Source: Hamadaea tsunoensis DSM 44101 (GTDB taxonomy: Bacteria > Actinomycetota > Actinomycetes > Mycobacteriales > Micromonosporaceae). From it: 64,000 nucleotides of DNA. The DNA lies in NCBI RefSeq assembly GCF_000428945.1, contig NZ_AUAX01000001.1, positions 248,001 through 312,000 on the forward strand. The letters run 5' to 3'. The notes under the pieces were generated by a model. That model was not told the origin of the DNA, did no database searches, and saw only the letters and a program-made list of their open reading frames with translations. The position numbers were made by a program, and so were the translations under genes. Positions 3,078 through 62,800 of this stretch are shown in pieces (the first letter of the stretch is position 1; every line of letters begins with the position of its first letter).

Positions 3078-3163
3078 CCCCGCCGGCCATCCACTGAGCG
3101 CGCATTTCGGACAGTCGCGACAAAGGCCGAACGGGGTGAGACCGTGACCGGGCGACGGTGGAC

Positions 3164-3292
3164 GATGCTTCGCCCCACTCACCTGGCAGTGGAGTCCCCG
3201 GAGCGCAGCGATAGGGGCGCAACGGTCTCCCGCGGGAGGAGCGGAGGCGAGATCGACGGACCCGGGACGAATCTTTAAAAAAGGATCTTGGT
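3164..3292 (+). repeat. Repeat kind 6, copy 1 (about 130-bp element ending in GATCTTGG)
   Basis: Begins GATGCTTCGCCCCACTCACC, contains CCACT/AGTGG and CTCCCGCGGGAG palindromes, then GGAGGTGAGATCGACG and ends AAAAAGGATCTTGG. It matches 26147-26277 (reverse strand) almost throughout, 37944-38064 with an internal deletion, and 8431-8482 only at the right end. It lies just before the pirin gene, so it could form part of its leader. Confidence 0.8.
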
Positions 3293-8206: not shown

Positions 8207-8614
8207 GGCCCAAAGGATACGTTTCCCCGGCCTTGTCCGCGTGTCCGCCCGCCGGTCACAATCTGCCCCGCTGACCACGCCGCCGCACAAGATCAGAACA
8301 TGGGGAAGTCGCACGGTCACATTCGTGCCCAGACGTGCAGATCCTACCTACGCGCCTCGCCCAGCCACCGTTCCGGCGGAGCCAGATCGCTCTATATAGG
8401 ACGGTCAGTACGACACCGGAGGATTGAGGGGCGAGACCGCGGAGGTGAGATCGGCGAACCCGGGAAATAGTGATCTTAATCTTGAAGATCTTCCCGGAGA
8501 GGGCTCAAAATCCAGGACTTCTATGCCCTTCTGCGTAGTTTGACCCTGGCGGGGCGCCAAGTACGTACTATTGCCTAGAGACATCTGCCCGGTGTTGGCG
8601 GCAGTCTTGACGGT
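8207..8614. other. Gene-free interval upstream of the PP2C gene
   Basis: About 400 bp. The part near 8320-8400 has no gene I can support. 8431-8482 is a degraded copy of repeat kind 6. After it the DNA is unusually AT-rich (GATCTTAATCTTGAAGATC), then TTGACC near 8539 and TACTAT near 8566 may be promoter elements for the phosphatase gene, although their 20-bp spacing is long. Confidence 0.5.
8431..8482 (+). repeat. Repeat kind 6, degraded copy (right end only)
   Basis: GCGAGACCGCGGAGGTGAGA followed by TCGGCGAACCCGGG and TGATCTT matches the right third of the element at 3164-3292 and 26147-26277. The left two thirds are not recognisable. Confidence 0.6.
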
Positions 8615-11880: not shown

Positions 11881-13020
11881 TCAGCGCAGCAGCAGGTTCA
11901 GATCGCCGAACTCGTGCCACAGGTAGCCGGCCTCGATCGCCTCGGTGTAGCAGGCCGCCAGCAGTTCCTCCCCGGCGATCGCGGCCAGCATCAGCAGGTG
12001 CGACGCCCGCGGCTCGTGGAAGCCCGTGAGCAGGCCGTCCACGACGCGTACGCCGGTCTCCGGGGTGATGACGAGTTCCGTCCAGCCGGCGGCGGCGCGT
12101 ACGCCGTCCGGGCCGGTCGCGCTCTCCAGCGCGCGTACGGCGGTGGTGCCGACGGCGATGATCCGGCCACCCGCCGCGCGCGCCTCGTTGACCAGCCGAG
12201 CGGTGGTCGCGCCGACCGTGAAGTGCTCGGCGTAGGGCTTCTCGTCGGCCTCGTGCGAGGCGACGCCGGTGTGCAGGGTGATCGGCGCGACGACCACGCC
12301 GCGGCTGGCGAGGCGGGTGACGAGCGCCTCGGTGAAGGGCCGGCTGGCGCTCGGCATCTCCGCGCTGCCTTCGCGATCCCCTGTCTCCGCGAAGACGCTG
12401 TGGTACGCCGACAGCGGCCACTCCTTCTCCACATAGGAGTACCGGATCGGCCGCCCGTTCCGCCGCAGGTACGCCGGAACGTCGGCGAACGAGGGCTCGG
12501 CGATCCAGAGCCGCTCGGTGTAGGGGGCCAGGAGGGTGATGTTCGCGCCGCCGCGCAGCGTGACGTTCTGGCCCACGTAGCCGGAACGGAACCGCTGCGT
12601 CGTGCGGCCGACCGGCTCCCGCAGTTCCACGACCCACGTGGCTGACTGCACTTCTGGCGGCTCGCGCAAGCGCTCCCCGGCTGGCTGCACTTCTGGCGGC
12701 TCGCGCAAGCGCTCCCCGGCTGGCTGCACTTCTGGCGGCTCGCGCAAGCGCTCCCCGGCTGGCTGCCGGGTGGAGAAGTGCACGACGAGCGTCCCGTCCC
12801 AGGACGGGACCGCGGCGGCCATGGTCGCCGACGTGTTGACCACGAGGACGTCGCCCGGGCGCAGCAGGTCCGGCAGGTCCGTGAACCGATGGTGGGCCAC
12901 CTGGTTCGGGCGCTTGCCGACGAGCAGGCGTACCTCGTCGCGGGACAGGCCCCGGGCCTCGGGCGGCTCGTGCGCCTCGAGTTCGGGGGCGAGGGTGAAG
13001 TCGAGGGTGGCGGTCGTCAT
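11881..13020 (-). CDS. queA: QueA-like S-adenosylmethionine:tRNA ribosyltransferase-isomerase with an internal 13-residue tandem repeat
   Basis: A 379-residue relative of QueA, which moves the ribose of SAM onto 7-aminomethyl-deazaguanine in tRNA to make epoxyqueuosine. Visible blocks include RPGDVLVVNTSATM, PITLHTGVAS, IIAVGTTAVRALES and TGFHEPRASHLLMLAAIAG. Between VVHFSTR and ATWVVELREP the protein has three exact copies of PAGERLREPPEVQ, which should form a surface insertion. The gene overlaps the VOC gene by 4 bp (ATGA). No other queuosine genes are nearby, so the true modification or substrate is inferred only from family. Confidence 0.8.
   Translation of the reverse strand: MTTATLDFTLAPELEAHEPPEARGLSRDEVRLLVGKRPNQVAHHRFTDLPDLLRPGDVLVVNTSATMAAAVPSWDGTLVVHFSTRQPAGERLREPPEVQPAGERLREPPEVQPAGERLREPPEVQSATWVVELREPVGRTTQRFRSGYVGQNVTLRGGANITLLAPYTERLWIAEPSFADVPAYLRRNGRPIRYSYVEKEWPLSAYHSVFAETGDREGSAEMPSASRPFTEALVTRLASRGVVVAPITLHTGVASHEADEKPYAEHFTVGATTARLVNEARAAGGRIIAVGTTAVRALESATGPDGVRAAAGWTELVITPETGVRVVDGLLTGFHEPRASHLLMLAAIAGEELLAACYTEAIEAGYLWHEFGDLNLLLR
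12646..12762. repeat. Three exact 39-bp tandem repeats inside queA
   Basis: Units at 12646-12684, 12685-12723 and 12724-12762 are identical and begin CTGCACTTCTGGCGGCTCGC. Since 39 is a multiple of three the frame is kept, giving three copies of a 13-residue unit. Identity between units points to a recent expansion. Confidence 0.95.
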
Positions 13021-15899: not shown

Positions 15900-16024
15900 C
15901 CCGCCGCACTTGGGCTCTCCAGTCGTTGGTGTGGGCGGCTGTCGCCTGCGCCGTCGAGATTCCTCTCCTTCCGGGCGTACGCGTCGCAGGGCTCGCCGGG
16001 AGGCGACGGTGGGTTCGAGATTGG

Positions 16025-16172
16025 CGTGATCAAATACCGCCATTACGGCACCGGGACACCGATTCCCTTGATCAAATACCGCTATTACGGCACGGGAGCC
16101 CCTTTTTGCCGTATAGGCGGTATTTGATCAAGGGAATCGGGCACGGTCTGCCGTTATGGCGGTACTTGATCA
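16025..16172. repeat. Repeat kind 4: long inverted repeat built from GATCAAATACCGCC units
   Basis: Left arm 16025-16096 and right arm about 16100-16172 are near-perfect reverse complements of about 70 bp with a very short loop. Each arm carries two copies of TGATCAAATACCGCNNTACGG, so the whole element has four units, two in each orientation. It would form a large hairpin in RNA or a cruciform in DNA. Confidence 0.85.
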
Positions 16173-16228
16173 CTGGTCGCCGGGGCGAGCCGGGAAGGAC
16201 GCAGCCCATCAAGATCCTGAAGACCAAG

Positions 16229-16342
16229 AGCCTTGGTCATGTCACTCGTATATGTCGAAATCCGGCCGCCGCAACATATACGAGTGACACGATCACGGCC
16301 AGGCGATCCACTTCGACATATATGCGCGACATGATCAAGGCC
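16229..16342. repeat. Repeat kind 5: nested inverted repeat with TGTCACTCGTATATGT arms
   Basis: TGTCACTCGTATATGT at about 16240 pairs exactly with ACATATACGAGTGACA at about 16279. A wider imperfect pairing joins CCTTGGTCATGTCACTCG with the right end TGCGCGACATGATCAAGG. It lies 57 bp after repeat kind 4 and shares no sequence with it apart from GATC-type ends. Confidence 0.8.
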
Positions 16343-16421
16343 GGCACGGCGATCGGCCGACCTACCCAGGGAACTGCGCGGACCGCCAGGCCGACGCGAC
16401 CCACACAGGCGGCCGGAGAGC

Positions 16422-16462
16422 CCAAGATCAGGGTGATTTCCCTGATCCAAACCGGATCTCCG
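16422..16462. repeat. Repeat kind 1, truncated copy
   Basis: CCAAGATCAGGGTGATTTCC followed by CTGATCCAAACCGGATCT is one end and one inner half-module of the 84-bp element (compare 22873-22956), with the other half lost. Confidence 0.7.
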
Positions 16463-16522
16463 GGCCACGCCCTACGGCGGCGCCGATGCGGTGGCCGGCG
16501 GGACCCGCGGCGGGGTCGACGG

Positions 16523-22197: not shown

Positions 22198-22866
22198 ATG
22201 GCGAAGCGCAACGGGGACACGGTCCAGGACCGGATCGTCGCCCTGATCCACGAGCGCAAGCTGGCCACGGGCGCCCCGATGCCCACCGAGCCGCAGCTCA
22301 TGGACCTGCTGGGCGCGAGCCGCAACAGCGTACGCGAGGCGGTCCGCGCGTTGCAGGCGCTCGGGATCGTCGAGATCCGCCACGGCTTCGGCACCTTCGT
22401 CGGCAGGGCGTCGCTCGACGTGCTCTCGCCGTCCCTGGAGTTCCGGGTGCGCTCGAATCCGCTGAGCGCCCTGCACGACCTCGTCGAGGTACGCGAACTG
22501 CTGGAGACCGGGCTCATCGGCCGGGTCGCCGCCGACGCCACCTCGACCAAGCTCGCGGCGCTCGACGCGCTGGTCACGGCGATGGCCAACGACCTGCAGG
22601 CGGACCGGGCCTTCCACACGCTGCTCTACGAGTCGCTCGGCAACGAGCTCGTGCTGCAGCTCATCGACCTGTTCTGGCAGGTCTACCACCAGGTCGAACC
22701 GATCCTCGGCGACTGGCCCCAGGTGCACAAGTCGGAGATCGTCGCCAACCACCGACGGATAGTGGAGGCGTTGCGGTCCAAGGACGCCCACGCCGCCCGC
22801 GAGGCCATGAGCCGCCACTTCACCGAGGTCAAGACCCGCATAGCCAAAGCGGAGTCGGCGTCCTGA
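22198..22866 (+). CDS. FadR-type GntR regulator (sialoside locus, copy 1)
   Basis: A 222-residue GntR protein: winged helix at residues 1-75 (MPTEPQLMDLLGASRNSVRE, then GIVEIRHGFGTFVG) and an all-helical FCD effector domain. ATG 22198 is preferred because GGAGGAG lies 6 nt upstream; ATG 22183 precedes that site. Its DNA-recognition helix is almost identical to that of the second GntR at 26438-27181, so both could bind the same GGACAT-N3-AYGTCC sites. FCD domains bind small acids; NanR of E. coli, a FadR-type GntR that senses sialic acid, is a reasonable comparison. Confidence 0.87.
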   Translation: MAKRNGDTVQDRIVALIHERKLATGAPMPTEPQLMDLLGASRNSVREAVRALQALGIVEIRHGFGTFVGRASLDVLSPSLEFRVRSNPLSALHDLVEVRELLETGLIGRVAADATSTKLAALDALVTAMANDLQADRAFHTLLYESLGNELVLQLIDLFWQVYHQVEPILGDWPQVHKSEIVANHRRIVEALRSKDAHAAREAMSRHFTEVKTRIAKAESAS

Positions 22867-22872
22867 CCACCC

Positions 22873-22956
22873 CCAAGATCCCGTTTGGATCAGGGAAATC
22901 ACCCGAATCTTGGGCCAAGATTACGTGCGAAAACCTGATCCAAACGGGATCTTGGC
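22873..22956. repeat. Repeat kind 1, complete copy a (A-B type)
   Basis: 84 bp, arms CCAAGATCCCGTTTGGATCA (left) and TGATCCAAACGGGATCTTGG (right) are exact reverse complements. The centre AATCTTGGGCCAAGATT is a palindrome, with left inner module CACCCGAAT (A) and right inner module TTACGTGCG (B). It lies between convergent GntR and sialidase genes. Confidence 0.92.
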
Positions 22957-22959
22957 CCC

Positions 22960-24813
22960 TCAGGACGTGACGTTGTCCATGGGGAGGCGGAGGCCGAGTT
23001 GGCCGCCGATGGGCAGGTTGCGGTCGCGGATCAGGCCGAGCTCCGTGTCGTTGAGCGCGCGGCGGTAGACGCGTACCTCGTCGAGGTCGCCGTGGAAGCG
23101 GTCCCCGCCGTCGAGCTTCTGTCCGATGTGGATGCCATCGACGCCGAACTCCTTGCCGGCCGTCACCGAACCGGGCGGCACCGCGGCCGAGGCGACCACC
23201 GCGCCGTCGACCCGCAGCGAGAACTGCCCGTTCGCCCGCTGCAGCACGATGTGGTGCCAGGCCCCGTCGTTGTACGCCTGCGCGGACTGCACGCTGACGT
23301 TGAACCGGTCGACCATGATCAGCGCCCGGATCCGGTGGGACGCCGGTTCGGCCCGCAACCAGATCTGCGGCGTCGTCCCGCTGCCCACCCGGTACGCCCA
23401 CAGCAGTGTGTGCGCGCCGGCGGTGTCGGCGTACCGGAACCAGGTCATCATCGTGAAGTCGCCGCCGCCGACGTCGATCGAGCAGTCGTACGGCACCTCG
23501 ACCCGGTCGTCGACGCCGTCCAGGTGCAGCCCGCCGCCGAACACGCCGTCACCGGTCGTGGCGCCGCCGCGTACGAAGGCTTGGTTGTGCCGGGTGGCGT
23601 CGGGAGTGACCGGGCCGGGTGCCGGCGGCGCGGGAATGCCGGGTGGTGTGCCGTTGGGCGTGGCCAGGTACGCGTCGTCGAAGCGCGCCCACCGGATGCT
23701 CTCGTAGGGTGACGCGACCCCGGCCTCGTACGCGAGCCCGATGAGCCCGTCGCCGAGCAGCGACATGTCGGAGTATCCCGACTGCCCCCACCAGAAGACC
23801 TTGCCGTCCTCCCAGTCCTGCCAGGTACGCCCTTCGGTGTAGGAGGAGCGGACGGTCATCGCCTCGCGGGCGACGGGGTGCGCCGGAGACGAGAGCAGGA
23901 TGCGGCCGGGCCGTTCCCGCAGCGTGGACGCCTGGACGTCGGCGATGTCGAGATCGATGATCTGGAACGGCTTGTCGAAGGACTCGCCCCCGTCGCTGCT
24001 GACCGCGTACGCGCGGTGGCCCGGATCGGTGCCGCGCTCACGGGCCAGGGCGTAGACGCCGCCGTTGTCGAGCTCGACGACGGTCACCTCCTGCGCGATG
24101 ATCGACCCGTCGTCGACGGCGCTGGTCGCGCCGATGTGCCAGGTCACGCCGCTGTCGTCGCTGTAGAGCAGGTGCGTGCCGTAGACGTGCGGGCCCACGC
24201 CGTCATAGGTCTCGTAGCTCGCGCCGAGAACCAGCCGTCCCGCGTGGACGCCGTGGGTCAGCTGGATGCCGTGCATGGGGCCGGTGGCGTACCAGAAGTT
24301 CCACTCGGGGCGCTTCCCCTCGGTCATCTCCCGCTCCGGCGACCAGGTCGCCCCGTCGTCGTCGCTGTAGGTGACGTAGGGATCGCGGTCGCAGCCGTTG
24401 GGGCAGGGTGCGGCGCCGTTGTGCGTACTGACCAGGACGATCCGGCCCGTCCGGCGGTCGACGATCGGCACCGGGTTGCCGTGGGTCTCGCCGTTGCCCT
24501 TGGACACGACCTGAATCGGGCCCCAGGTGGCGCCGTTGTCGAAGGATCGGCGTACGACGAGGTCGATGTCGCCGTCGTCGCCGCAGTCGGCCACCCGTCC
24601 TTCGGCGAAGGCGAGCAGGGTCCCGTCGGCCGCCTGCACGACCGCGGGGATGCGGAAGCACGCGTACCCCTCGGTCTTCTGCTGGTAGACGACCTGTTCG
24701 TCGAAGCGCGGGCTCGCGGTCGCGGCGCCGCCGGATGCGTGGGCCGCGGGTGTCCCGGCGGCCGTGAGGACGAGCGCCGCGAGGACGGCGAGCGCTCGGG
24801 GGTGTAGACGCAT
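22960..24813 (-). CDS. Secreted GH33 sialidase with C-terminal LamG-type lectin domain
   Basis: A 617-residue protein with a signal peptide (LAVLAALVLTAAGTPAAHAS). The catalytic six-blade propeller starts with the FRIP motif (53-56) and carries Asp-boxes SFDNGATWG, SDDDGATWS and SDDSGVTWH. From about residue 410 a jelly-roll (LHLDGVDDRVEVPYDC, then YNDGAWHHIVLQR) is the concanavalin/LamG fold, likely for binding glycans. It should release terminal sialic acids outside the cell. ATG 24813 has AGGA 8 nt upstream; the operator overlaps this leader. Convergent with gntR, divergent from the second sialidase. Confidence 0.92.
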   Translation of the reverse strand: MRLHPRALAVLAALVLTAAGTPAAHASGGAATASPRFDEQVVYQQKTEGYACFRIPAVVQAADGTLLAFAEGRVADCGDDGDIDLVVRRSFDNGATWGPIQVVSKGNGETHGNPVPIVDRRTGRIVLVSTHNGAAPCPNGCDRDPYVTYSDDDGATWSPEREMTEGKRPEWNFWYATGPMHGIQLTHGVHAGRLVLGASYETYDGVGPHVYGTHLLYSDDSGVTWHIGATSAVDDGSIIAQEVTVVELDNGGVYALARERGTDPGHRAYAVSSDGGESFDKPFQIIDLDIADVQASTLRERPGRILLSSPAHPVAREAMTVRSSYTEGRTWQDWEDGKVFWWGQSGYSDMSLLGDGLIGLAYEAGVASPYESIRWARFDDAYLATPNGTPPGIPAPPAPGPVTPDATRHNQAFVRGGATTGDGVFGGGLHLDGVDDRVEVPYDCSIDVGGGDFTMMTWFRYADTAGAHTLLWAYRVGSGTTPQIWLRAEPASHRIRALIMVDRFNVSVQSAQAYNDGAWHHIVLQRANGQFSLRVDGAVVASAAVPPGSVTAGKEFGVDGIHIGQKLDGGDRFHGDLDEVRVYRRALNDTELGLIRDRNLPIGGQLGLRLPMDNVTS

Positions 24814-24816
24814 GCC

Positions 24817-24845
24817 GGACATCCTATGTCCGACGTGGGACGTCC
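24817..24845. promoter_or_regulatory. Double sialoside operator at start of sialidase 1
   Basis: GGACATCCTATGTCC (24817-24831) is a perfect palindrome with a 3-bp spacer; CGACGTGGGACGTCC follows with a 14-bp shift. Same paired layout as at 27245-27273. The sites overlap the leader of the leftward sialidase gene. Confidence 0.78.
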
Positions 24846-26146: not shown

Positions 26147-26277
26147 CAAGATCCTTTAGAAGATATTGTCCCGGGTTCGTCGATCTCACCTCCGCTCCTC
26201 CCGCGGGAGACCGTTCCGCCCCTGTCGCTGCGCTCCGGGGACTCCACTGCCAGGTGAGTGGGGCGACGCATCATCCG
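26147..26277 (-). repeat. Repeat kind 6, copy 2 (reverse strand)
   Basis: Starts three bases after the sialidase stop codon with CAAGATCC and, read on the reverse strand, matches 3164-3292 over its whole length (CGCCCCACTCACCTGGCAGT, CTCCCGCGGGAG, GGAGGTGAGATCGACGAACC). Confidence 0.82.
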
Positions 26278-26317
26278 CCGTCGCCCCCTCCCGCAGCCCC
26301 GGCGGCGAGCCCTGCCC

Positions 26318-26421
26318 CCAAGATCTGGTTTGGATCAGGGAATCGCACGTAATCATGGCCCAAGATTCGGGTGATTTCCCTGATCCAAGCGGGATCTTGG
26401 CGATCCAAGCGGGATCTTGGC
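26318..26421. repeat. Repeat kind 1, copy b (B-A type) with a duplicated right end
   Basis: Same arms as 22873-22956, but the inner half-modules are swapped (CGCACGTAAT on the left, ATTCGGGTG on the right), so the element is inverted. The last 20 bp (GATCCAAGCGGGATCTTGGC) occur twice in tandem. Located between convergent sialidase and gntR genes. Confidence 0.88.
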
Positions 26422-33871: not shown

Positions 33872-34020
33872 CCAAGATCCCGTTTGGATCAGGGAAATCA
33901 CCCGAATCATGGCCCATGATTACGTGCGAAAACCTGATCCAAGCGGGATCTTGGCGCGACCGCGCGGGATCTTGGGGCGGCCGCGCGGGATCTTGGCGCG
34001 GCCGCGCGAGGGCTTGGCGG
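33872..34020. repeat. Repeat kind 1, copy c (A-B type) plus three tandem end fragments
   Basis: A full element at 33872-33955 is followed by repeats of GCGCGGGATCTTGGNGCGGCC to 34020, each resembling the right end. The stretch lies between the convergent lyase and TetR genes and runs up to the TetR stop codon. Confidence 0.88.
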
Positions 34021-34702: not shown

Positions 34703-35323
34703 ATGACCCGCCTGCTCCCCGGCGATCGGGCGCCGGAGCTCGACCTGCGTACCATCACCGGCGCGCCCGCGCCGCTGCCCGATCCGGCCGGGCGGCTCGT
34801 GCACGTGCAGTTCCGGCGGTTCGCGGGCTGTCCCGTGTGCAACCTGCACCTGCGCTCGTTCGTGCTGGGCGCCGACCGGCTGGCGGCGATCGGCGTACAG
34901 GAGATGGTGTTCTTCCATTCCAGTGTGGACGAGCTGCTGGAGCATGCCGCGGACCTGCCGCTGCCGATCGTCGCGGACCCGGAGAAGCGCTGGTACCGGC
35001 GGTTCGGCGTGGAGCAGGGCAAACGCGCGATGCTCGACCCACGGTCGTGGCCGGCGATCCTCGCGGGCAGCGCGCGCAGCCTCGCCCGCCTGGTGACCGG
35101 CCGGGGCCGGGCGCCGAAGCTGTTCCCCGACGGCGGCCGCTGGGGCCTGCCCGCGGACTTCCTCGTCGGGCCGGACGGGACGGTCCTGGCCGCCCACTAC
35201 GGCGAGCACGCCGACGACCAGTGGAGCCTCGCCGAGGTCGTCACCCTGGCCACCGCCGCCGCCCCCGCCACCCCCACCCCCGAGACCTCCAAGATCGGGT
35301 TTGGATCAGGGATCCGCACGTAA
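34703..35323 (+). CDS. AhpC/TSA (peroxiredoxin-like) protein with a C-terminus encoded by a repeat
   Basis: About 206 residues in the thioredoxin fold. RFAGCPVCNLHLRSF near residue 38 contains the CxxC where peroxiredoxin-like proteins hold the redox cysteine. LPLPIVADPEKRWYRRFGV and GLPADFLVGPDGTVLAAHYG follow. It is likely a peroxide- or thiol-handling enzyme in the cytoplasm. The last 11 residues (SKIGFGSGIRT) and the stop codon are read from the left arm of a repeat-kind-1 element, so the original stop was probably replaced by the element. ATG 34703 is preceded by GAAGGATG. Confidence 0.82.
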   Translation: MTRLLPGDRAPELDLRTITGAPAPLPDPAGRLVHVQFRRFAGCPVCNLHLRSFVLGADRLAAIGVQEMVFFHSSVDELLEHAADLPLPIVADPEKRWYRRFGVEQGKRAMLDPRSWPAILAGSARSLARLVTGRGRAPKLFPDGGRWGLPADFLVGPDGTVLAAHYGEHADDQWSLAEVVTLATAAAPATPTPETSKIGFGSGIRT

Positions 35324-35372
35324 TCTTGGCCCAAGATTCGGGTGATTTCCCTGATCCAAACGGGATCTTGGC
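35289..35372. repeat. Repeat kind 1, copy d (B-A type), overlapping the end of a gene
   Basis: 84 bp, arms as elsewhere (left arm with G for C at base 9), inner modules CGCACGTAAT and ATTCGGGTG. It supplies the last codons and TAA stop of the peroxiredoxin-like gene and ends 45 bp before the oxidase gene. Confidence 0.9.
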
Positions 35373-36701: not shown

Positions 36702-37928
36702 ATGCTCACCCCCGGACAGCGCATCTCCGGCCGCTACCGCCTGGGTACGCCCCTGGGCAGCGGCGGCATGTCCGACGTCTGGGCGGCCACCGACGAGGTG
36801 CTCGCCCGGCCCGTGGCGGTCAAGGTGATCAGGCCGGTGCTCCTCGCCCAGGGCGGCTTCGCCCAGCGCTTCGCGACCGAGGCCCGCATCCTCGCCGGAC
36901 TGCGCCACCCCGGCATCGTGGCCGTCTACGACTACGGCGAGGACGGCGAACTCGCGTACCTGGTGATGGAGCTGGTCGCGGGGCAGTCGCTGGCGAACAT
37001 CCTGGCCGACCGCGGCACCCTCGGACCGCAGTCGACCATGCGGGTGGTCGCCGAGGCGGCCGCCGCCCTCGCCGCGGCGCACGCGGTCGGCGTCGTGCAC
37101 CGCGACGTGAAGCCCGGCAACCTGCTGCTGCGTGCGGACGACGGCTCGGCCGTCCTCGTCGACTTCGGCATCGCGACCTCGGCCGGCTCGGCCGGGCTCA
37201 CCGAACCCGGCACCGTCCTCGGCACCGCGTTGTACATGGCGCCCGAGCAGGCGACCCGGGGCACGATCACGTCCGCCGTCGACGTGTACGCGCTGGGCGC
37301 ACTCGCGTACCACTGCCTGGCCGGGGCGCCTCCGTTCACCGGGGACAACCCCGTGGCCCTGGCGTACCGGCACGCGTACGAGGATCCGCCGGCGCTGCCC
37401 GCTTCCGTCCCGCCCGGCGTACGCGAGGTCGTCGAACGGGCGCTCGCCAAGGACCCCGACGACCGCTACCCCGACGCCATGGCACTGGCCGAGGCCGCCC
37501 GCAACGCGACCACCGCGGCGGTCAGCGGGACGACAGCGGTGCTCCCCGCCGTGCCCCGCCGCCCCCGCAAGAAGCACGTCGTCGCGGCGGGCAGCGCCGT
37601 CGCGGCCGTGGCCGTCGGCGCGATCCTCCTGGCAGCGAGCCCCATGGGCACGTCGAGTCCGGGCGGCACGACGCCGTCGGCCCCGACGACGCACACACCC
37701 GGCACCGGCAAACCTGTCCTGGTCCGGACGACCGAACGCCCGACCGGCCACGCCACCACGAGCGCCACACCGTCCGCGGGCGCCTCGACCTCCGCTCAGG
37801 CGTCGCAGGCGCCCTCGCAGGCTCCCGCCAGCCCGTCGGCCGCACCCGCGCCGAGCCTCAGCACCCAGCCGGCCGAGCCGCCCAGCAGCGACCCGTCCCC
37901 CGCGGCAGCCGGATCCACGGCGCCCTGA
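36702..37928 (+). CDS. Membrane-bound Ser/Thr protein kinase (PknB type, no PASTA domains)
   Basis: A 408-residue kinase. Glycine loop LGSGGMSDVW, ATP lysine Lys41 (VAVKVI), catalytic HRDVKPGN (His133-Asp135) and DFG at 154. All Hanks subdomains appear to be intact. After residue 265 a linker leads to one membrane helix (about 291-313) and an extracellular tail of about 90 residues rich in Ser, Thr and Pro, with no folded sensor domain. AAGGAGG lies 7 nt before ATG 36702. It is preceded by the oxidase and followed by a repeat, so it is likely a single-gene unit. Confidence 0.92.
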   Translation: MLTPGQRISGRYRLGTPLGSGGMSDVWAATDEVLARPVAVKVIRPVLLAQGGFAQRFATEARILAGLRHPGIVAVYDYGEDGELAYLVMELVAGQSLANILADRGTLGPQSTMRVVAEAAAALAAAHAVGVVHRDVKPGNLLLRADDGSAVLVDFGIATSAGSAGLTEPGTVLGTALYMAPEQATRGTITSAVDVYALGALAYHCLAGAPPFTGDNPVALAYRHAYEDPPALPASVPPGVREVVERALAKDPDDRYPDAMALAEAARNATTAAVSGTTAVLPAVPRRPRKKHVVAAGSAVAAVAVGAILLAASPMGTSSPGGTTPSAPTTHTPGTGKPVLVRTTERPTGHATTSATPSAGASTSAQASQAPSQAPASPSAAPAPSLSTQPAEPPSSDPSPAAAGSTAP

Positions 37929-37943
37929 CCGAACCGCGGCGAA

Positions 37944-38064
37944 GGATGCCTCGCCCCACTGTGCTGGCAGTGGAGGCGCCCCGCGCCGGAACGGTCTCCC
38001 GCGCGAGGAGCGGAGGTGAGATCGACGAGTCCGGGACATGCATGTGCCCTTGAATTTGATCTTG
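37944..38064 (+). repeat. Repeat kind 6, copy 3 (internal deletion)
   Basis: Shares GATGCCTCGCCCCACT, CTGGCAGTGGAG, CGGAACGGTCTCCCGCG and GGAGGTGAGATCGACGA with 3164-3292, but lacks about 15 bp in the middle and ends TTTGATCTTG. It lies between the kinase and the ABC exporter genes. Confidence 0.8.
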
Positions 38065-47924: not shown

Positions 47925-48764
47925 GTGCTCACTCGTACCGTCGCCTTCCTCGGCGTGGCGACCGTGCTGCTCGGCGGTGGGGCCGTCGCCGCGGCCGGCG
48001 GGAACCCCGGCCGCACCCGGCCCGGCGGCGCCGTCGTCACCGAGATCGAGATCCCCGTTCCGGGACAGGCCGCCGTGGTGGCGTACCTGGTCCGGCCCGT
48101 GACCCCCGCGCCGCACCGCAGCCGCGCCGGCGCGCTGTTCCTGCACTGGTTCGAACCCCCGGGCAGTACGCAGAACCGCACGGAATTCCTCGCCGAGGCG
48201 GTCGACCTGGCGAACCGGGGAGCCGTGGCGGTCCTGCCCCAGCTCACGTTCCCCTGGGACGGCGACCCGGCCGGCGACGCGACCGACCGCACCAAGATCA
48301 CCGCACAGCTCGCGGCGGTCGAATCCGCGTACGCGTCGCTGGTGAACCAACCGGACGTGGACCCGCACCGGACCGCGGTGATCGGCCACGACTACGGCTC
48401 GATGTTCGGCGCCCTGCTGGCCGAGCGGCAGCCCTTGGTACGCGCGGCGGTGTTCATGGCCGGCGACGCGACCTGGGCGAACTGGTTCGACACGTACTGG
48501 CTGGACCTGCCCGACGAGCGGAAGGCGGCCTACCGGGCGGTGTTCGCGGGGCTGGACCCGGTGGACAACGTGAGCCGGCTCGGGGACCACCTGTACTTCC
48601 AGTGGGCGGGCCGCGACCAGTTCGTCACCCCGGCGGTACGCGCGGCGTTCAGCGCGGCGAACCCGCGGGCGAAGGTGAGCCTCTACGACCGCGCGGACCA
48701 CTTCCTGACGCAACCCGCCAAGGACGACCGCGAGGCCTGGCTCACCACCCAACTCTCCCTCTGA
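47925..48764 (+). CDS. Dienelactone hydrolase-like alpha/beta hydrolase, exported
   Basis: A 279-residue protein with an N-terminal hydrophobic segment (VAFLGVATVLLGGGAVAAAG) that may be a signal peptide or anchor. The alpha/beta hydrolase core has GHDYGSMFGALL, where the nucleophile position of G-x-Nu-x-G holds Asp (H-D-Y) instead of Ser or Cys. The likely catalytic acid is in YFQWAGRDQFV and the His in LYDRADHFL. An Asp nucleophile is unusual for dienelactone hydrolases. GGAGG lies 7 nt before GTG 47925. The substrate is unknown. Confidence 0.7.
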   Translation: MLTRTVAFLGVATVLLGGGAVAAAGGNPGRTRPGGAVVTEIEIPVPGQAAVVAYLVRPVTPAPHRSRAGALFLHWFEPPGSTQNRTEFLAEAVDLANRGAVAVLPQLTFPWDGDPAGDATDRTKITAQLAAVESAYASLVNQPDVDPHRTAVIGHDYGSMFGALLAERQPLVRAAVFMAGDATWANWFDTYWLDLPDERKAAYRAVFAGLDPVDNVSRLGDHLYFQWAGRDQFVTPAVRAAFSAANPRAKVSLYDRADHFLTQPAKDDREAWLTTQLSL

Positions 48765-48803
48765 CCCCCCTCCCCTCTCCCGACGCGCCCTCTCCCCTCC
48801 TTC

Positions 48804-48875
48804 GGCGATCTTGCGCGAATGTCCGGGCGTATCAGGCAATCCGGACGGAAATCGAGACATTCGCGCAAGATCGCC
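48804..48875. repeat. Repeat kind 2, copy 2
   Basis: GGCGATCTTGCGCGAATGTC pairs exactly with GACATTCGCGCAAGATCGCC around a 32-bp loop. Arms match 2813-2882. It lies between the convergent hydrolase and aminotransferase genes. Confidence 0.9.
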
Positions 48876-48926
48876 GGGAGGGGAGGGCGGGGCGCCGGGG
48901 GGAGGGCGGCGGGAGGGGCGGGCGGG

Positions 48927-59624: not shown

Positions 59625-59680
59625 GGCCGCCACCTTAGCGCCTCGATCCCGCCGGGCCTCGCCTGCTGGGTTCCGCCGCC

Positions 59681-59785
59681 CCAAGATCCCGCTTGGATCA
59701 CGGTTGTCACCCGAATCTTGGGCCATGATTCGGGTGCTTTCCCTGATCCAAACGGGATCTTGGCGCGTGTGGGCTTGCGGGATCT
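59681..59785. repeat. Repeat kind 1, copy e (A-A type) plus end fragment
   Basis: Full element 59681-59764 with both inner modules of type A (CACCCGAAT...ATTCGGGTG), followed by an extra GCGGGATCTTGGGGCG. It lies between two co-directional genes (HAD start, esterase end). Confidence 0.88.
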
Positions 59786-59819
59786 TGGGGCGCGCGGGAA
59801 GCGGGCCGGGGAGGGCTGG

Positions 59820-62678: not shown

Positions 62679-62800
62679 CCAAGATCCCGTTTGGATCAGG
62701 GAAATCACCCGAATCTTGGGCCATGATTACGTGCGGAAACCTGATCCAAACGGGATCTTGGCGAGCCGCGAGCAGCGCGGGATCTTGGGGGCGCGAGCAG
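62679..62800. repeat. Repeat kind 1, copy f (A-B type) plus end fragment
   Basis: Full 84-bp element 62679-62762, then GCGCGGGATCTTGGGGGCGC. It lies between the convergent polymerase and glycosidase genes. Confidence 0.9.

Follow-up and report, generated by a model that had tools for sequence, protein, structure and literature searches.

The window, the whole 64,000-nucleotide stretch of DNA that was analysed, holds six complete copies of a repeat, here named E84, and one internally deleted fragment (Table 1). E84 is an imperfect palindrome measuring 83 bp arm to arm. It consists of a 22-bp arm CCAAGATCCCGTTTGGATCAGG, an 11-nt spacer, a 17-nt centre AATCWTGGSCCAWGATT, a second spacer and the reverse-complement arm. 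The original prediction located all seven copies correctly and gave the element a length of 84 bp; base 84 falls outside the right arm. The 22-bp arms, described there as exact reverse complements, are so in two of the six complete copies (22873 and 62679) and carry one to three differences in the others. The palindromic centre AATCTTGGSCCAAGATT is exact in two of the six (22873 and 35289), with A/T changes elsewhere.

The copy at 22873 nearly fills a 93-bp gap between predicted genes at 22198-22866 (+) and 22960-24822 (-). Independent gene prediction again placed five of the seven copies (16422, 22873, 26318, 33872 and 62679) between convergent genes and the remaining two, 35289 and 59681, between co-directional genes. 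The absence of a T-run also held: of 77 copies, one has at least four T residues within the 8 nt past the right arm, and one has the mirror arrangement at the left arm. Searching the whole window against Rfam gave no matches at the gathering threshold, and around the 22873 copy, with matches up to E=1 admitted, the sole match lay outside the element at 22984-23050.

Table 1. Copies of E84, and extra copies of its end, in the window
Feature	Position	Strand	Context
E84 fragment, deleted internally	16422..16462	.	convergent gap 15900-16522
E84 complete, alpha half left	22873..22955	+	convergent gap
E84 complete, alpha half right	26318..26400	-	convergent gap; three mismatches between the arms
Extra end copy CGGGATCTTGG	26410..26420	+	just beyond right arm
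E84 complete	33872..33954	+	convergent gap 33840-34020
Extra end copy CGGGATCTTGG	33965..33975	+	
Extra end copy CGGGATCTTGG	33986..33996	+	
E84 complete	35289..35371	-	co-directional gap; overlaps the end of predicted gene 34703-35323(+)
E84 complete	59681..59763	-	co-directional gap 59634-59819; both predicted neighbour genes on - strand
Extra end copy CGGGATCTTGG	59778..59788	+	
E84 complete	62679..62761	+	convergent gap 62652-62810
Extra end copy CGGGATCTTGG	62778..62788	+	

The extra end copies, recognised by how far they stand from the element, accompany 11 of 48 elements at distances of up to 65 bp. Read on the + strand they stand to the right in eight cases and to the left in one in stretch C1 of the genome, once on each side in C5, and nowhere in C4. 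The right-side bias might reflect slippage tied to replication direction, which could produce such a pattern. A separate repeat with GTGAGATCGACGAACCCGGG and CCCCACTCACCTGGCAGTGGAG is present in the window at 3142-3270, 8439-8468, 37923-38039 and about 26170-26290.

E84 is dispersed over the whole genome. The 9.48 Mb assembly (68 contigs) contains 519 arms (270 + 249) at up to three mismatches, and the reversed arm pattern, used as a control, gave no matches at the same threshold. Thus the abundance is above chance, and the copy count proposed with the original prediction shows the repeat to be real. Exact core matches number 304. A contiguous sample of 992 kb yielded 48 complete copies along with 59 exact core matches and 97 arms; scaling from the core-match or arm counts gives about 250 complete copies genome-wide. 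The range is narrow. When the search was extended to related Micromonosporaceae, 4 of 300 family genomes contained the exact core, all four belonging to the genus Hamadaea, and a whole-element search of 61 family genomes returned the same four. A stricter two-sided pattern matched 22 stretches of a named genome collection, a scan that may leave the genome studied here out, and all 22 lie in two Hamadaea metagenome bins. Searches of phage, plasmid and viral-contig collections for E84 gave no matches. No described family with this sequence was found in the openly licensed literature, including that on repeats of Hamadaea and Micromonosporaceae, in keeping with what had been supposed. E84 is a newly recognised, genus-restricted, REPIN-like hairpin family at gene ends.

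Placement was determined relative to genes predicted by a home-made codon-usage finder, in which starts are uncertain and stops less so. In the contiguous set, picked for the window's contig and for synteny, the 48 complete copies comprise 23 in convergent gaps, 23 in co-directional gaps, one in a divergent gap and one inside a predicted gene. Counted per gap of at least 84 bp, complete copies occupy 23 of the 73 gaps between convergent genes, 23 of the 206 between co-directional genes and 1 of the 124 between divergent genes (convergent versus divergent, p=1.6e-10). The mixed set of 77 complete copies, which includes stretches picked for good E84 copies, has 36 copies between convergent genes, 32 between co-directional and 3 between divergent ones, with 4 inside predicted genes and 2 at edges. 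An excess in convergent gaps, named beforehand as support for a termination role, therefore appears in every sample, together with near absence from divergent gaps and clustering after stops; copies are non-randomly placed relative to genes. The statement that E84 lies mostly between convergent genes stands as a strong excess per gap but not as a majority of copies, the two classes being equally numerous (23 versus 23).

The feature common to occupied gaps is a nearby stop codon. In the contiguous set the distance from E84 to the nearest stop has a median of 21.5 bp and is 70 bp or less in 45 of 46 copies. Of 32 copies in co-directional gaps, 25 are closer to the upstream stop. The eight copies with 218-1041 bp to the next start sit 19-117 bp from the stop. 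The mean relative position in 22 co-directional gaps is 0.24, below all of 20,000 uniform draws. Four of the 32 co-directional copies overlap the next predicted start or come within 5 bp of it, which leaves no space for a promoter between. The copy at C1:427612 sits between divergent genes that are conserved in the relative G003.

Harmless insertion that avoids genes and promoters would produce part of this pattern. E84 could then be selfish, a miniature mobile repeat that does nothing for its host and is found after stops because selection removed the other insertions; we regard this as possible, if rather unlikely. Many copies are near-identical (up to 99% identity), which implies copying of E84, and with the species-specific consensus they point to recent copying. 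In other bacteria, REPs are likewise found mainly between convergent and co-directional ORFs, as described in passages of PMC3733652. Tolerance alone, however, fails to predict the hugging of stop codons inside long co-directional gaps.

As a single strand, E84 folds strongly. The six window copies have energies of -48.8 to -53.9 kcal/mol (z -6.1 to -9.5), and for each of them none of 200 shuffles folded as well as the real copy. With a pair shuffling that ignores kinship among copies, four outer stem pairs were examined: of 94 copies, 77 form pair 38, versus 59.5 in shuffles (none of 5000 reached 77), and 77 form pair 39, versus 70.4 (P 0.001), and pairing at 40 and 41 was not significantly above shuffles. 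This stem covariation is moderate evidence of selection on pairing.

The two halves of the element are not equivalent, an asymmetry absent from the original prediction. Their 11-nt spacers are unlike each other. The spacer of the alpha half, GAAATCACCCG, is exact in 45 of 56 copies, and the other half has 29 distinct 13-nt spacer forms among the 56, part of this contrast being built in because alpha was assigned to the half that is more alpha-like. The spacers seldom pair (stem pairs 15-17 are formed in 8, 5 and 6 of 56 copies) and so form an internal loop. Two exact alpha spacers occur together in 1 of 48 copies of the contiguous set. Self-correction of a palindrome would be expected to yield a symmetric element; E84 is asymmetric.

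The near-invariant alpha half, with the caveat just given for its contrast with the variable half, would suit a DNA-level recognition site for a nucleoid, replication or repair protein, the hairpin being secondary. In co-directional gaps the alpha half has no strand preference (15 in the same sense as the genes, 17 opposite), which argues against its being read as RNA in one constant sense. A DNA-level signal leaves unexplained both the link to stop codons and the scarcity of other stems beside E84. Moreover, the alpha spacer is not the same in relatives, where the spacers are fully complementary to each other in several copies. We consider such a site very improbable.

Occupied gaps seldom contain a second hairpin. 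In 33 occupied convergent gaps the best perfect stem outside E84 has a median of 4 bp, like random genome segments, and 25 unoccupied short convergent gaps have longer stems than the remainder of the occupied gaps (p=1.1e-6), in a comparison that includes stretches picked for their E84 copies. In contiguous sequence a stem of at least 9 bp is present in 2 of 24 occupied-gap flanks versus 14 of 31 unoccupied gaps (p=0.003), the lengths compared being unequal (mean 50.5 versus 71.1 nt). That a second stem is missing from most occupied convergent gaps counts against a selfish repeat. Convergent gaps with and without E84 are alike in their best 84-nt folding energy (-47.7 versus -48.9). T-run terminators at convergent transcript ends are not significantly depleted where E84 sequence is present (1 of 52 versus 7 of 84 without), and at co-directional ends the difference runs in the opposite direction (2 of 26 versus 3 of 133). 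At C1:195591 a canonical hairpin with a T-run stands ahead of E84. The undepleted T-run terminators, this copy behind a canonical one, the similar folding energies, the starts within 5 bp and the copies in divergent gaps or inside genes all argue against a terminator role.

Many of the longer convergent gaps that lack E84 hold other hairpin repeats: a family of about 74 bp (CGACGATCTTGCGCGAATG...), TTGATCAAATACCG..., TATCGGACAGTCGCGACAAAG... and others. In 852 kb, of which 400 kb were picked for good E84 copies, 50 of 68 convergent gaps of at least 84 bp match one or more of eight motifs, E84 included, as do 46 of 159 gaps between co-directional genes and 10 of 99 between divergent genes. An E84 arm match is missing from 42 of the convergent gaps, and 24 of these have another motif. 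The family of about 74 bp (CGACGATCTTGCGCGAATGTCCGGGC...) is also seen in the window at 48764-48926 and in gaps of C1, often at gene ends, with 75 arm matches in 852 kb of this genome and one in 340 kb of G003.

The way in which E84 moves was approached through the marks that known systems leave. No convincing target-site duplication of 2-9 bp was found in 77 copies over 289 boundary choices (shifts of up to 8 on each side); at the top-scoring choice 3 of 77 copies had duplications (0.34 expected), and the 12 best-scoring choices reached at most 7 of 77 (2.3 expected, 3-mers). A search for Y1_Tnp (RAYT) gave no match in any of the four Hamadaea genomes, one of which is 87% complete, even at E<=1; among positive controls 10 of 14 genomes matched, E. 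coli included. Y2_Tnp (IS91-type) gave no matches, and the control genomes likewise gave none. REP tags are not enriched in 10-nt windows at the 154 ends of the 77 copies: GTAG occurs once and CTAC three times (about 2.7 expected each), CGTC four and GACG five times (about 7 each). Insertion into pre-existing palindromes was also considered and rejected, the flanks having no extra pairing.

Four long forms of E84, found in about 1.3 of the 9.48 Mb, contain no recognisable transposase. One long open frame from each was compared with Pfam, and none matched at E<=0.1 except one, at 0.078, under its cut-off. These forms had suggested a larger transposon with E84 ends, a candidate that was dropped; the interior of one is an independent repeat family. 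This interior family, of about 300 bp, is flanked by two E84 halves in 2 of 30 loci (L188 and L201). Locus L061, outside those 30, is a third case, and L192, L197 and L204 have E84 sequence nearby but not as two ends. The long forms look like E84 copies split by other repeats. The repeat with GTGAGATCGACGAACCCGGG and CCCCACTCACCTGGCAGTGGAG also lies within the interrupted copy at L061 (9520-9970). The repeat of about 300 bp (L188-L217) is non-coding, consists of several GATC-containing palindromes and appears intergenic, by predicted genes, in the 30 loci read; at least 58 matches were obtained from the best 40 of 235 candidates.

MITEs are short inverted-repeat elements with many near-identical copies. 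Unlike them, E84 has no detected target-site duplication and no matching transposase was found by the Y1 search, the duplication test or the long forms; a match to an IS-derived MITE was what the original prediction had named as evidence against it. The small size, inverted repeats, high copy number and non-coding nature of E84 would fit an ordinary MITE that a DDE transposase mobilises, or a classical REPIN dependent on a RAYT, and its two inverted halves in one hairpin resemble the REPINs described in parts of PMC3116915. The target duplication, the RAYT and the GTAG/CGTC tag were all negative as tested, and the independence of the interior of one long form argues against a larger transposon that ends in E84 arms. 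A MITE or classical REPIN is thus very improbable.

Related hairpins occur in other Hamadaea genomes and, in G003, stand at gene ends. G001-G003 have a related element (E-type), GCTGGATCAGGG-N10-AATCTTGGSCCAAGATT-N10-CCCTGATCCAGC. G003 has a second family, G59, of 59 bp (GCAGATCA[CG]GG[AT]TAYGC...), whose arm resembles, by eye, the variable half of some E84 copies. Among 28 G59 copies in G003, 11 are convergent, 15 co-directional, none divergent and 2 inside genes, with a median of 16 bp to the stop; in 1 Mb of G003:C1 they lie closer to stops than E84. The 17 E-type copies in G003 divide into 9 convergent, 6 co-directional, 1 divergent and 1 inside a gene, with a median of 30 bp. A 39-bp tandem repeat in the window (12640-12766) is similar, by eye, to an insert of about 40 nt that splits an E-type element of G003 (G003:C1 near 6751420).

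Orthologous gaps of up to 400 bp were compared between C1 (592 kb) and G003 (600 kb). A G003 repeat hairpin is present in 6 of 10 orthologous gaps with E84 versus 5 of 184 without (p=1.3e-6), and with size limits and divergent gaps excluded in 6 of 7 versus 3 of 30 (p=2.3e-4); the sharing rule was written after part of the data had been seen, and these p-values are exploratory. In G003 the six shared gaps contain G59 in four cases, E-type in one and, in the last, an E-type element interrupted by an insert. Inspection by eye suggests that the hairpin is equally placed relative to the neighbouring genes at three co-directional sites. A later test of C4 and C5 (400 kb) against G003 with a paired-arm rule gave 0 of 4 gaps with E84 versus 1 of 147 without; a looser rule flagged 1 of 4, where the G003 gap holds a different hairpin array. 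Pooled over C1 and C4/C5, the counts are 6 of 14 versus 6 of 331.

E84 sites are thus part shared and part lineage-specific. The shared positions in C1 speak against a selfish repeat, and for it speak the 8 of 14 copies in orthologous gaps without a G003 repeat hairpin, including all four in C4/C5. Where a site is shared, an old site may have changed its sequence, or hairpins may have arrived more than once at a favoured place. Some orthologous G003 gaps, of 16, 26 and 14 bp, are too short for such a hairpin, so none is required there. Tentatively, and on balance doubtfully, fixed 3'-end sites might be kept in Hamadaea while the hairpin sequence is replaced in each lineage (E84 versus G59 or E-type) and homogenised genome by genome. 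If so, dispersed terminators would evolve in concert, by hairpins that copy themselves into existing 3'-end sites.

The placement at stop codons, the strong fold, the scarcity of second stems and the same placement of related families in G003 argue for E84 as a 3'-end hairpin. Somewhat probably, E84 is a genus-restricted dispersed palindrome that acts as a bidirectional terminator without a U-tract ("I-shaped"), as a protector of mRNA 3' ends, or as both, and that is mobilised without a recognisable Y1 transposase. Transcription from either side would produce RNA with the same outer stem of about 22 bp. The hairpin would then end transcription, or fix and protect the mRNA 3' end, or both, and convergent genes would be spared read-through into one another. 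We infer that copies spread within a lineage by a copying process that would leave no detectable target duplication.

Dispersed repeats that form hairpins between genes occur elsewhere too, as the DNA-uptake-sequence terminators of Neisseria and Haemophilus and the intergenic repeats of Caulobacter; E84 differs from these in sequence and length. REPs and REPINs, as described in passages of PMC3116915 and PMC3733652, share with E84 the high copy number, the two inverted halves making one hairpin and the non-coding, intergenic location in convergent and co-directional gaps. CGTC REPs are apparently without a dedicated transposase, according to the same passages. E84 differs in its lack of a GTAG/CGTC tag and of any Y1/RAYT gene found in the genus, in its 22-bp arm, in having one near-invariant and one variable half, and in sites partly shared with unlike hairpins in another species. 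In mycobacteria, I-shaped terminators lie within 50 bp of the stop codon, as stated in part of a review (PMC12288462). Like those of high-GC actinobacteria treated in passages of PMC12288462 and PMC8914203, E84 combines a strong hairpin, no T-run and a position tens of bases from the stop in a GC-rich host. E84 has I-shaped terminator anatomy, that is, a strong hairpin just past the stop and no U-tract, and would have the corresponding function. It is also a high-copy sequence family, and the passages on I-shaped terminators in those two papers are silent on repeats.

If these hairpins end transcripts, Hamadaea has adopted families of repeats to mark the ends of its genes, and E84 would be a REPIN-like population that lacks the usual transposase, which raises the question of how such repeats spread. 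Termination by hairpins that lack a U-tract is disputed in high-GC actinobacteria, and E84 would provide a natural library of hundreds of near-identical hairpins in varied contexts in which it can be tested.
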